Both the position numbers and the translations under genes were made by a program. The notes beneath the pieces were generated by a model. That model worked only from the letters and a program-made list of their open reading frames with translations. It ran no database searches and was not told the origin of the DNA. 64,000 bases of DNA from Tetramitus jugosus (lineage: Eukaryota > Heterolobosea > Eutetramitea > Acrasida > Vahlkampfiidae): the NCBI GenBank assembly GCA_937625935.1, contig OW569356.1, positions 248,001 through 312,000 of the forward strand, given 5' to 3'. This document shows positions 39,461-45,321 of this stretch, one piece after another (position 1 is the stretch's first letter; each line of letters starts with the position of its first letter).

Positions 39461-40089
39461 GTTGTTATTATTTTTTGTATGTGCGTGTGAGCTGAGTCAG
39501 AGTGTGTTTTTGTATTTGTTGCTTTTTTTTGGGGGGGATGGGGGTGATGATTCGGATAAAAAGTTTGTGTGATATCTCTGTGTGTGCTGTGTGTATGTGT
39601 GGGGTGACACTATCAGTACTGATATCGGAGTGCTAGAGGGTGTTGTTGTTGTTGAGTTGGTTTGGAGAAATATGGGGAAGCAGGTTCTCAATTTTAAAGG
39701 CGCAAGAAAAAAACCATGGCAGAACAATGGAGATTTGTGAAAAGCCCGTGGCAACTCGGGCGAGTTTTGTGTCGTCGCACTCTCCGTTGGTCCACAAACG
39801 TCTCGTGGGAGATTTCGACCAAACGGCGATATCGGGTAAATGTTCAAAGACGTTAACAATTTTGCTGTAAAGCAATGGGGAATTTCTTTCCTTCTTCCAC
39901 TTTGCCATCCAAGGATCTTCCAAGCCAAAAGATCAATATTAACGTTTACGCAAAATAGGCCGCCATTGAGATTGGCCGCCAAGCAGAAAAAAACCGGGAC
40001 CCAAGGCTTGGGAACTTTCTGTGCGAATAAACAACCCAACGACCTACCAACATCATCATCACCACTTGCATTAATTATTCACCTCTTTG
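39461..40089. other. Divergent intergenic region, ABC transporter / F-box membrane protein
   Basis: 629 bp. Contains poly-G/T next to the ABC gene, AAAGGCGCAAG near 39694, and two GGCCGCCA words near 39960-39985. A 180-codon open minus-strand frame (39497-40039) crosses it without any domain and I regard it as chance. Confidence 0.45.
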
Positions 40090-41937
40090 ATGTTGAATTT
40101 TTTGAAGGAACACAATCGTTATCTCTCACTGAATGAAGGTGATGATCACCCATACGACGATGATGAAGAGAATAGCAACCATCGTCATAGCAATAATGAA
40201 GAATTGAATCTGTTGGGTTCTCATCATAATCACAACAACAGGGGCGTCACCACGCGAGCCAACAAGGCATCCCTATCACTGATTGTTCAACTACCAGATG
40301 ACACACTGGTCAACATTTTTTCATTCTTGTCTGTCGATACCATTCTCAATGTTTCTCTCGTTTGTCGCAATTGGTTCGAGCTAACCGAGTTGAACGTGTT
40401 TTGGAAACCGATATTTGAAAAGGCCATTTTCAACAGTTCTATTCCACGTTATGTCCTCTATCAACACAGAGCATCATCATGGTGGAAGACGATTCAAGAG
40501 AGATTTGATTTTAGTGAGAGAATGATACAGGCACCTCATGCCGCACCTCCCATCTTGCCTGTCACTGTACCTACTACTACAACTGCTGCTGCCAATAATA
40601 ATAATAACAATAACAATAGCAATGGTGATGACATTGATGATGATGATGACAGTGGTGATGAAAATGGTGGTGATTACAATAGCAACACTAGTCTTCAGAT
40701 ATCAAAGCGCGGAAGACGACAATTGTATGATATGATCAATCGACTCGTCTATGAAAAGTACTACAAGGGACAATCGACTCAATACCTTCATCACTTGTCA
40801 ACACCACTGTATTACAAGACTTGTTACTACTATCTGCATGGTTATCAAGTCGTTGGAACGAGAAGGTACGTGCGTCAACAAGAGATTCAAAGAAAGGCTG
40901 CACGTTACAATGAGACGTGCACCACATGTGGAATGAATTATTTGCTGTATGCAGTTGTGCCATTGTCCACGCTGTTGTTCACACTGTTCATGATTGCATT
41001 GTTGTTGAAGGAAACAATAGGAGTACCAGAGTTTGTGAAGCAGATGATTAAGGAGAAAGAGCACAAGGATGGTCCAAAGATCAATGTGAATCAACATTCT
41101 GATCTTTGGTGGTTCCCAGTGTTCTTGCCCTTTTTTGCTGGATTGGCGCTATGGTACATTTTGCTCCTACAGGTCAATGTGAAGCACTTTGTCCGGTATT
41201 TGAGTCACATTCGACAGAATTATAAGATTGTTTCCTATGCCATCATTGTATTTGCCTATTTCACAAGTGTCATCATGTTTAGTGTACTAGGCATGCTTGC
41301 ACTCATGTTTCCATATGACAAGAAGGCAAGCATAGAGAATTGCAAGTGGATCTGGTTGCGGAAGATATCACACAACGATTTGTTGCTCTTATCGCCGATT
41401 GTTGCAGGTATTATACTCGTGAATTTCATTTGGCCTCTATTGCAGTTTATTGTGTTCTCTATCCGACGCAGAGGCAATTGCATTTCAGTCAACTGTTTAC
41501 GCAAGAGTGTTTTCCAATTGTTTGTCTACGGTGGAGGCATTATCTGTCTGATCATGTTCATTGCTGTGATGATATCGAATTATACGGAGACCGAGCAACA
41601 AAAGGAGAAGGGAGGAAGCAAACTCACCTACTTGTTCCAAAACTTGGCCTTTGTTCCTCTGTATCTCATCCAGATTGCCATTGTGGGGCTGTTCATGTTC
41701 CTATTTTATCGGTTGTGGTACTCTGTACCTCTGGCTGTTCGGTTCAAAGTTCGGGTGTCCTGTAGCGTTCTGGCCGTATTGATCGTGCTCTCCACAGCAA
41801 TGCTTATTTCATTTGAGCTCCTGCTTGCGATTCGAGGATTGTCTGTTTACCTCTTAATCCCTCTCATCCCTCTTCCAACAGCTCTTTGCTCCATATTCTA
41901 TACTATCCTTTATTTGAAGAGAGTGTTGTTCGGGTGA
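40090..41937 (+). CDS. F-box protein with about eight transmembrane helices
   Basis: 615 residues from the ATG at 40090. Residues ~58-106 are a clear F-box: IVQLPDDTLVNIFSFLSVDT, ILNVSLVCRNWFEL, LNVFWKPIF. A loop with Asn and Asp triplet tracts follows (160-200). From about residue 283 to the end come some eight hydrophobic helices (for example YAVVPLSTLLFTLFMIALLL, FLPFFAGLALWYILLL, IIVFAYFTSVIMFSVLGMLA, IVGLFMFLFYRLWY). This half resembles TMEM185-type proteins in general pattern, but that is from memory and unverified. If so, it is a membrane-bound SCF receptor. The F-box lies on the cytosolic side by necessity. It precedes, in the same direction, the G-alpha/F-box fusion gene. Confidence 0.82.
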   Translation: MLNFLKEHNRYLSLNEGDDHPYDDDEENSNHRHSNNEELNLLGSHHNHNNRGVTTRANKASLSLIVQLPDDTLVNIFSFLSVDTILNVSLVCRNWFELTELNVFWKPIFEKAIFNSSIPRYVLYQHRASSWWKTIQERFDFSERMIQAPHAAPPILPVTVPTTTTAAANNNNNNNNSNGDDIDDDDDSGDENGGDYNSNTSLQISKRGRRQLYDMINRLVYEKYYKGQSTQYLHHLSTPLYYKTCYYYLHGYQVVGTRRYVRQQEIQRKAARYNETCTTCGMNYLLYAVVPLSTLLFTLFMIALLLKETIGVPEFVKQMIKEKEHKDGPKINVNQHSDLWWFPVFLPFFAGLALWYILLLQVNVKHFVRYLSHIRQNYKIVSYAIIVFAYFTSVIMFSVLGMLALMFPYDKKASIENCKWIWLRKISHNDLLLLSPIVAGIILVNFIWPLLQFIVFSIRRRGNCISVNCLRKSVFQLFVYGGGIICLIMFIAVMISNYTETEQQKEKGGSKLTYLFQNLAFVPLYLIQIAIVGLFMFLFYRLWYSVPLAVRFKVRVSCSVLAVLIVLSTAMLISFELLLAIRGLSVYLLIPLIPLPTALCSIFYTILYLKRVLFG

Positions 41938-42798: not shown

Positions 42799-43673
42799 AT
42801 GGGCGCCAAACAATCAAAAACCACTTATTATTACTTTGGTGATTGTCAGCAACAACAACAGCAGCAGCAACACTCATCATCATCGACACTTGCTCTCGCC
42901 AATGTCAACATGGATGAAAGGGTGAAGATTTTGTTGTTGGGAACAGGTGAGGGAGGAAAGGCAACGATATTCAAGGTTTGTTCTTACTTGTTGTTGTTGT
43001 TGTTTTTTTAATTTTCCAATATGGAACATTTCACTGACACCAACCAACCAACCGAACCAACAAATGAAATACAAAAAACCAAATGATCATTTTTTTTCCC
43101 TCATACACACATACACACACAGCAAATGATTCATCAATATGGCACAAAGAGAAAGAGAGACAGGACAAGTGACCAAGAAGAAGACAACTTTCTCAATTCA
43201 TATCAGAGTCTAGAAGTGCGTCGATCCTTCATACCCATCATCCATCGAAACTGCATACTCGCCATGTACAATCTCCTCCAAGGTGCTCTCCATGTCTTTC
43301 ACCTGCCCCTAGACATGACACCCAATTCTCCGACTAGGAATGCAGTGGACAGCATTGCTCTGGAGAGGGATCATGCCATTAGTTTTGAAGATTGGGCACT
43401 GTCTCAAACCATTGGTCGCATGATACAATTCCTATGGAATCACTGTCCAGAGATTCAAGAGGCATACAATAGGAGAAATGAACTGGAATTGGAGTACATG
43501 GACAGTGCGAGGTATTGGTTCACTGAGATTGATCGATTGATTGAGCCGTCCTATGTGCCAAAGATTGATGACATTATGCGCATGAGGGTCAAGACGACCG
43601 GTATCGTCGAAACAGAGTTGTTCTTGCCTATTCGAGTCAGAAGAAAACATCATCAACAACATCAATTGCAATT

Positions 43674-43709
<36 letters not shown>

Positions 43710-45321
43710 GTATTACAATAGCAACAATAGTACACAAGTGCTCTCTTCATCACCATCATTGCCATCCTCTCTGTCTCCGCCATTGTCATTACAGCATCAT
43801 CATCATCATCATCACAATAGTCATGGTAGTCACAATCAGCCATCGTCTCTCATGACCACGTTGGCCATGTCAGAAGAATGTGAAGCAGCAGTACATCAAG
43901 TTTCTCCTTCTTCTTCATTGGATGATCATCCAGTGGTGCGCAATCAACAACAACAACAACAACCACAACAACAACATCAGAACAACAATAATAACAACAA
44001 TCATCACCAACACCAACAACACCAACAACATCAAAATCATCAAATGGATGAAATGCTGTACAAGAAATCAACTCTTGTTCTTGTCGGATCACAGAGAAAT
44101 GAGCGAAAAAAGTGGATTCATGCGTTCGATGACGTGACAGCCATTGTGTTTGTGGTGGCCCTGTCAGAGTACAATCAACTCTTGTATGAGGATGGGAGAA
44201 CCAATCGAATGCACGAGAGTTTACTGCTGTTCCCAGAGATTGTCAATTCGAGAAGATTTGAAAACGTGCCCATCATTCTCCTGTTCAACAAGATTGACGT
44301 CTTCATGGAGAAGATTCAAAAGTTTGACTTGACGTGTGCCTTCCCTGACATACCAGACAACCTCAAGTTGGACAATCAACCGTGGAGAGATTTTGTGCCT
44401 CAGATTATTCAGGAGAAGATTGACATTGCATTTGAGAATATTTCACAGCAGTCGAGATGTCACAGAAAGTTGGCAGATGAGTTGAGAGATTATGAGGAAC
44501 AGAGAGGACCAGTCATGTCTGATGATGAGCTGGAGGAGGGAGATGAGAATCATCCGTCCAATAAGCGAAGCAAAGTGAGGCGATCTCTCGTCCCAAAGTT
44601 CATGAAGGGTCGAAAGAGCAAGAGAGTCGACACATCTCACACTGCACTTGTCCAAATGATCGAAGAGGCCAGTAAAGCAAGCAAAAGCAATGTGTGCACG
44701 CCGTTGGAGATAGGAATACAAAATCCGTTCGAGTTGTTTGATGAGGATTGTGACAGTTCTGCCGACACAGCAAGCGAAGCCAATAATTTATTTAAGGGGG
44801 TGGCATATGATGTGGTTCTGTATATATTCATGTTCTTAGAGCCGAAAGACCTTGTAGAGATCAATCTGGTGTGCCTTGATTGGTACAAAATATCCGAGTC
44901 AGATATCTTGTGGAGAACCTTCTGCCTGAGGTATCAAGCTGACTTGCAGGAGAGTGTCGTCATGAAGGTCTATCAACGATACAAGTCTGAATCTAGGGTA
45001 ACAGAGAGAGAAATCATCTCGGATAGCAATCAGAGAGAGTCTCAGATTCTTCGTTCTAATTCTCTCTCGATAATGCTTCCTAGTCAACGTGCATCGGAGG
45101 ATGAATACCGTTTATTAGAGAAAGGAGCATACAAGTATTATTATCAATTCGGAGAATTGTTTGTGAGCCGAAGTATAGCATTCATTGCAGACCAGTTTCT
45201 GAGACAAACGAATCGAAAGGAGGTAAGGACAGAAGTAACATGTGCCATTGATACAGTGGGATTCAAACCCATTATGGAGCGTGTGATCGCCGGCATACTG
45301 CGAACAAATAAACAAAAGTAA
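42799..45321 (+). CDS. G-protein alpha subunit with internal F-box (fusion), two exons
   Basis: Model: join(42799..42975, 43123..45321), 791 residues; intron GTTTGT..ACACAG splits after the P-loop, giving IFK|QMIHQ like KQM in G-alpha. MGAKQS at the start fits N-myristoylation (Gly2, Ser6). G-alpha features in order: P-loop GTGEGGKAT (48-56); helical domain ending [20 protein letters not shown]; switch [11 protein letters not shown] (Arg214, Thr217); switch [22 protein letters not shown] (379-398); [26 protein letters not shown] (448-451); TCAID (765-769). Between NKID and TCAID sits a full F-box, about 615-660 ([32 protein letters not shown]). A 150-residue Gln/His/Asn tract lies between the switches. 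Changes: P-loop Ser to Ala55, switch II Asp to Leu379 and Gly to Ser382, all at Mg/GTP-contact sites. GTP handling is thus doubtful. Confidence 0.9.
43660..44050 (+). repeat. CAA/CAT/AAC triplet tract in the G-alpha/F-box gene
   Basis: Encodes Gln, His and Asn runs between switch I and switch II. The reverse strand of the same DNA gives meaningless Val/Asp runs. Confidence 0.7.

Follow-up and report, generated by a model that had tools for sequence, protein, structure and literature searches.

In human FBXO4 an F-box is followed by an atypical small GTPase domain that is not a Gα domain, and in the plant XLG proteins the extension is N-terminal. FBXO4 acts on TRF1 through its atypical small-GTPase domain, by the account in PMC7086354. 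The XLG proteins are presented as atypical Gα subunits of very low nucleotide affinity, argued to be GTP-independent, in a review in which the word 'F-box' does not occur (PMC8584482); passages of the same review give the roles of the Gα motifs and record deviating motifs in Naegleria, Dictyostelium and plants. GTPases of the ARF family fused to F-box or BTB domains are described from particular taxa in a survey that treats such architectures as generally lineage-specific and leaves Gα out (PMC8358228). Among altered Gα subunits, the Gαi1 mutant S47N/G203A/E245A/A326S is described as a dominant negative with lowered nucleotide binding (PMC10699647), and engineered S47N proteins as retaining BODIPY-GTPγS binding and a Mg requirement (PMC12009698).

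The gene analysed here lies in a window of 64,000 nucleotides (the whole stretch of DNA that was analysed; C13:248001-312000) of a 26.35 Mb assembly of 56 contigs. Joining of its two exons yields, with no internal stop, a predicted protein of 791 residues, denoted the window protein (Table 1). Profile and alignment revealed a Ras-like core with an inserted helical domain, and the P-loop, helical domain, switch I, switch II, NKxD and TCAxD follow one another as in Gα subunits; both guanine-base motifs, NKxD and TCAxD, are present. The match to the Pfam Gα model PF00503 scored 255.2 bits (E = 1.1e-75; cut-off 48.8). Unlike Gα subunits, the window protein contains an F-box insert of ∼270 residues, has Ser47, Asp200 and Gly203 replaced and ends in a divergent C-terminal tail; no αN helix is recognisable. 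The F-box is defined by the curated F-box-like profile PF12937 at 37.3 bits (E = 2.3e-9; cut-off 24.3); the sister model PF00646 gave 17.5 bits on the whole protein, under its cut-off of 20.5, and 22.5 bits in a 68-residue segment. An earlier first-pass annotation of this DNA had placed an F-box at about residues 615-660 of a Gα subunit, between NKID (residue 448) and TCAID (residue 765). Translation and the Pfam profiles bear out both the order and the position, the PF12937 match covering residues 622-662. A chance F-box match is ruled out by the E-value and by conservation across the family.

Table 1. Features of the F-box Gα gene, in window coordinates.
Feature	Position	Strand	Content and basis
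Exon 1	42799..42975	+	Met-Gly start MGAKQS, poly-Q stretch, β1, P-loop; translation and Pfam Gα
P-loop GTGEGGKAT	42940..42966	+	Canonical GxGESGKST; Ser47 to Ala; alignment
Intron, 147 bases, GT...AG ends	42976..43122	+	Junction continuous in homologues P0002 and P0003
Exon 2	43123..45321	+	Helical domain, switch I, switch II, NKID, F-box insert, α4, TCAID, α5, stop
Switch I	43585..43611	+	Arg178 and Thr181 kept; alignment
Q/H/N/S low-complexity insert, β2-β3	43648..44070	+	Long here; P0002 and P0003 have a short form, P0004 none
Switch II, LVGSQ	44080..44115	+	Canonical DVGGQR; Asp200 to Leu, Gly203 to Ser; alignment
NKID guanine-binding motif	44287..44298	+	Starts at residue 448; translation, alignment
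αG-α4 loop insertion, ∼270 residues	44362..45165	+	Alignment; edges approximate
F-box, PF12937	44809..44931	+	Residues 622-662; Pfam profile
TCAID guanine-binding motif (G5)	45238..45252	+	Starts at residue 765; translation, alignment

Like FBXO4, the window protein combines an F-box with a GTPase-like domain; unlike in FBXO4, the F-box sits inside the G domain. As in the ARF fusions described in the survey, a GTPase of the ARF/Gα group is joined to a ubiquitination-linked domain; unlike those fusions, the F-box is inserted in a loop, and the arrangement is common to several genera. The Q/H/N/S-rich stretch between β2 and β3 (43648-44070) marks a second tolerated insertion point within the same Gα.

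Two protein searches and a search of the own genome yielded 12 proteins, the window protein included, with an F-box or F-box-like stretch after αG. Five are from the own genome (the window protein, L010, L026, L027 and L020), one is from Acrasis kona (P0003), one from Naegleria fowleri (P0018) and five are metagenome proteins; the protein searches contributed P0001, P0002, P0003, P0004, P0009, P0018 and P0097. A further protein, P0010, matches the window protein at 99% identity over the aligned part; we regard it as this gene recovered from a metagenome and left it out of all counts. P0001 shares 66% identity with the window protein across the aligned 85% of the searched part. The same architecture, for which the first-pass annotation had suggested a profile search of other heterolobosean proteomes, occurs in the proteins of Acrasis kona and Naegleria fowleri. 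For this gene the nearest named relatives come from Acrasis and Naegleria, which points to a heterolobosean source. In an alignment with 34 ordinary Gα subunits of our own selection (33 among the 120 matches listed, and P0005), the insertion follows the end of αG in all 12 members, also in the four further own-genome proteins, and its main stretch measures 120 to 353 residues. The α4 and G5 region comes next in 11 of the 12, P0001 ending first; both flanks of the αG-α4 loop are accordingly visible in 11 members, among them the window protein.

A FastTree phylogeny of 65 sequences placed seven members (the window protein, P0001, P0002, P0003, P0004, P0009 and L010) in one branch, denoted the window's branch, with a support of 0.997, and the other five in a second branch (0.996); all 12 came together with a support of 0.43. 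With 35 of those 65 sequences, IQ-TREE gave 90 for the window's branch and a UFBoot value of 53 for all 12, and the second branch formed no clade because L020 fell beside the window's branch. The common insertion site suggests a single origin of the F-box Gα proteins, of which the trees give no proof. A profile built from 10 members listed six proteins, two of which, P0125 and P0126, are ordinary Gα subunits without an F-box match. Known members, P0004 and P0018 among them, were missed because scoring was limited to 8000 candidates, and this search is no guide to the spread of the family. A scan of viral contigs gave 404 pattern matches and no relative.

The first-pass annotation had known of no described Gα with an internal F-box. 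We likewise found no description, although such sequences already stand in databases under automatic names: P0003 as 'G(q) subunit alpha' and P0018 (FDP41_002612) as 'F-box domain-containing protein'. Neither the Acrasis kona genome paper nor the paper on the G proteins of N. fowleri uses the term 'F-box' in its main text, and we found no literature on F-box and Gα in Naegleria or on heterotrimeric G protein and F-box in Acrasis. The titles and opening lines of abstracts of the papers listed, PMC9283941, PMC8584482 and PMC8358228 among them, make no mention of a Gα with an F-box. The arrangement thus joins a known fold to a known adaptor in a way that we did not find described; a likely earlier source, Anantharaman et al. 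2011 (Gene 475:63), lies outside the literature covered, and we do not claim priority.

The explanation that we place first, and on which our confidence is evenly divided, is that the product of the gene is a substrate receptor of an SCF (SKP1-cullin1-F-box) ligase, with the Gα fold as its substrate-docking module. The protein would probably be held at the membrane by an N-terminal lipid. Its Gα core would fold normally, and its hold on guanine nucleotide may be weak or confined to a single state resembling the inactive one. The switch/α3 face of the core would dock on G-protein partners (Gβγ, an effector, or a 7TM protein that contains an RGS domain). The F-box, projecting from its loop, would then bring in SKP1-CUL1, and the docked partner would be ubiquitinated. 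The assignment of docking to a switch-impaired Gα and of the SKP1-CUL1 link to the F-box is made by analogy; the Gα core, the F-box in the αG-α4 loop, its conservation in the family and the three replacements beside a retained NKxD are read directly from the predicted sequences. If the explanation is true, heterotrimeric G-protein signalling would be physically linked to the ubiquitin system within one polypeptide, and nature would have produced a Gα in which the switch was given up and the fold kept. It would also offer a testable system for the conversion of GTPase folds into pure binding modules.

The first-pass annotation had read a complete Gα motif order. The order itself stands, but changes in the P-loop (GEGGKAT) and in switch II (LVGSQ) had been overlooked: in place of the intact GxGESGKS and DVGGQ, the window protein carries S47A, D200L and G203S. 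Numbering follows Gαi1, exon-2 residues 319-409 aligning with residues 200-290 of the 354-residue PDB chains, which puts Leu, Ser and Gln at positions 200, 203 and 204, respectively; Ser47 was counted on P0091. Asp200 is replaced by Leu and Gly203 by Ser in all seven proteins of the window's branch, and Ser47 by Ala in all four readable P-loops (window protein, P0002, P0003 and L010; those of P0001, P0004 and P0009 are unreadable), whereas all three residues are kept in 34/34 of the chosen ordinary Gα subunits. We take Ser47 and Asp200 to hold Mg and Gly203 to sense the γ-phosphate. With these Mg and γ-phosphate residues lost, ordinary GTP cycling is doubtful in the window's branch; as argued from the switch residues, GTP binding and hydrolysis by the window protein may be impaired, and a 'complete, working Gα' is doubtful for this branch on motif grounds. 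The BODIPY-GTPγS binding that engineered S47N proteins retain cautions against reading too much into these changes. Because the GTP switch looks impaired in its branch, the window protein may be a destruction-tagging receptor and not a classic switch. As in the dominant-negative Gαi1 described in PMC10699647, positions 47 and 203 are changed, and Ser326 also occurs in P0003 and L010; unlike in that mutant, the window's branch has Ala47 and Ser203, keeps Glu245, has lost Asp200 and has gained an F-box.

Switch changes also occur elsewhere in the genome, which counts against the substrate-receptor explanation, as does the Asp200 retained by the five members of the second branch. Among 13 other Gα frames, 10 have a readable DxxG, and three of these carry one switch change each: L013 and L014 have Leu and Asn, respectively, in place of Asp200, and L051 has Ser in place of Gly203. 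These three frames rule out that switch loss is unique to F-box members. None of the 10 combines the Asp200 and Gly203 changes, and Ala47 is found in none of the four readable control P-loops (L003, L004, L011 and L013).

The first-pass annotation had proposed that a GTPase module gates an SCF ligase. On this account the Gα would remain a switch, perhaps one that needs no Mg or uses a different ion, and would open or close access to the F-box according to its state. Retention of Arg178, Thr181 and NKxD in 7/7 proteins of the window's branch, and of Gln204 in 6/7, speaks for such gating, as does the second branch, where the DxxG aspartate (Asp200) is kept in 5/5 and the glycine in 4/5, so that switching could persist there. 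Against it stand the replacement of Ser47, Asp200 and Gly203 in the window's branch, which leaves the proposal unsupported as written, and, in the second branch, the loss of Arg178 in 5/5 by the alignment (uncertain for L020, where the position is close to the end of an exon) and of NKxD in 4/5, with an intact motif only in P0018. We consider nucleotide gating rather unlikely, and the likeliest of the alternatives to a substrate receptor. Most nucleotide motifs are lost in L027.

Conservation of the Gα surfaces was compared between five members (window protein, P0002, P0003, P0004 and P0009) and the 34 ordinary Gα subunits; the two sets differ in relatedness, which makes the identities a rough guide. 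Identity in β4-α3 was 82.6% in the five members against 66.8% in the ordinary set, and in switch I 76.0% against 72.5%. The corresponding values were 71.1% and 83.7% for switch II, 32.4% and 45.0% for α5, and 12.5% and 30.5% for the last residues. Read as such a guide, these values suggest that the C-terminal receptor hook is unconserved, that β4-α3 is conserved and that switch II is moderately so. The first-pass annotation had suggested that the Gα fold might sense a receptor or Gβγ; the divergent tail weakens the case for receptor sensing through the C-terminus. Gβγ is disfavoured as a partner because switch II is less conserved than in ordinary Gα subunits and αN is unrecognisable. The genome contains two Gγ matches. 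The Met-Gly start, which the first-pass annotation had read as an N-myristoylation signal, is suitable for this modification; P0002, P0003, L026 and L020 begin likewise, P0018 and L027 do not.

F-box proteins are often autoubiquitinated, and the sequence of the window protein names no substrate. The F-box might then serve the Gα itself, giving it a short life, regulating it through self-ubiquitination, or binding SKP1 outside an SCF complex, with no substrate in trans. Such self-regulation would leave unexplained why three switch changes are fixed in one branch in which the β4-α3 face is kept; we judge it unlikely, and rank it next after nucleotide gating.

A substrate receptor of the SCF type needs an F-box that binds SKP1, and an alternative is that the insert is an F-box-like helical fold only, which has lost SKP1 binding and acts as a spacer or as another docking site. 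In whole-protein searches PF12937 exceeded its cut-off of 24.3 bits in the window protein, P0003, P0004, P0009, P0018 and L027; for P0001 and P0002 the assignment to PF12937 comes from a precomputed label. P0097 (23.4 bits), L026 (19.8 bits) and L020 (17.7 bits) fell below the cut-off, which L026 reaches as a six-frame match (25.2 bits), and L010 gave no Pfam F-box match as a whole protein. At the LP motif of the F-box, the window protein has VA and P0001 has MA. These low scores and the lost LP favour a spacer. They are opposed by the score of the window protein itself, by the match of 11 of the 12 isolated F-box segments to PF12937 (E ≤0.01), by the F-box Trp, invariant in 12/12 segments, and by the alignment of the pattern with FBXO4, the best match (2.2e-8) of a profile of the 12 segments against solved structures, which also matched FBXO3, FBXL5, SKP2 and F-box/WD protein 1A. 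We regard the spacer as improbable. SKP1 was found in the genome at 104.6 bits, with a second match at 58.1 bits, and cullin-like matches above 200 bits at eight places. The link to an SCF ligase drawn in the first-pass annotation is plausible from these sequences.

Removal of the intron yields KATIFKQMIHQYG, whose counterpart is uninterrupted in P0002 and P0003. Only the N-terminus and the P-loop depend on this splice because the second exon by itself is open from the helical domain to TCAID. That the F-box and the Gα are separate genes falsely joined in the gene model is ruled out for practical purposes, since all but the start and the P-loop lies in one exon and the same order recurs in proteins of other assemblies.

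Returning to the substrate-receptor explanation, a wider form of it can be put forward tentatively: heteroloboseans would possess natural dominant-negative-like Gα proteins with their own SCF adaptor, whose frozen surface captures receptors or partners for ubiquitination, and, together with a Gα-BTB protein of the same genome, Gα folds would serve cullin-1 as well as cullin-3 ligases as substrate receptors. We hold this wider form to be possible and clearly less likely than the explanation for the window protein itself. The Gα-BTB frame (L051:1353-3791, minus strand, G000:C14) matches Gα at 218.9 bits and, further along in that frame, BTB at 22.1 bits (cut-off 20.5), and is a possible cullin-3 adaptor on a Gα. 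It was placed with the 12 F-box proteins by IQ-TREE (UFBoot 87) and beside L011 by FastTree.

Further combinations were seen among the related sequences. One frame of the same genome (L052:1-2847, plus strand, G000:C35) combines Kelch repeats with a weak Gα match of 52.4 bits and a TPR-like region that stays below cut-off. A metagenome protein (P0007) carries Kelch and Gα labels, and a protein of 1093 residues from the sponge Oopsacas minuta (P0006) carries ankyrin and Gα labels. The F-box repertoire of the 26-Mb genome is large: when 150 out of 253 candidates were scored, F-box-like matches with E ≤0.001 numbered 134, which is a lower bound. The upstream neighbour of the F-box Gα gene (window positions 40087-41937, plus strand) also has an F-box (PF12937, 1e-11), followed by long hydrophobic stretches that, judged by eye, resemble several membrane passes.
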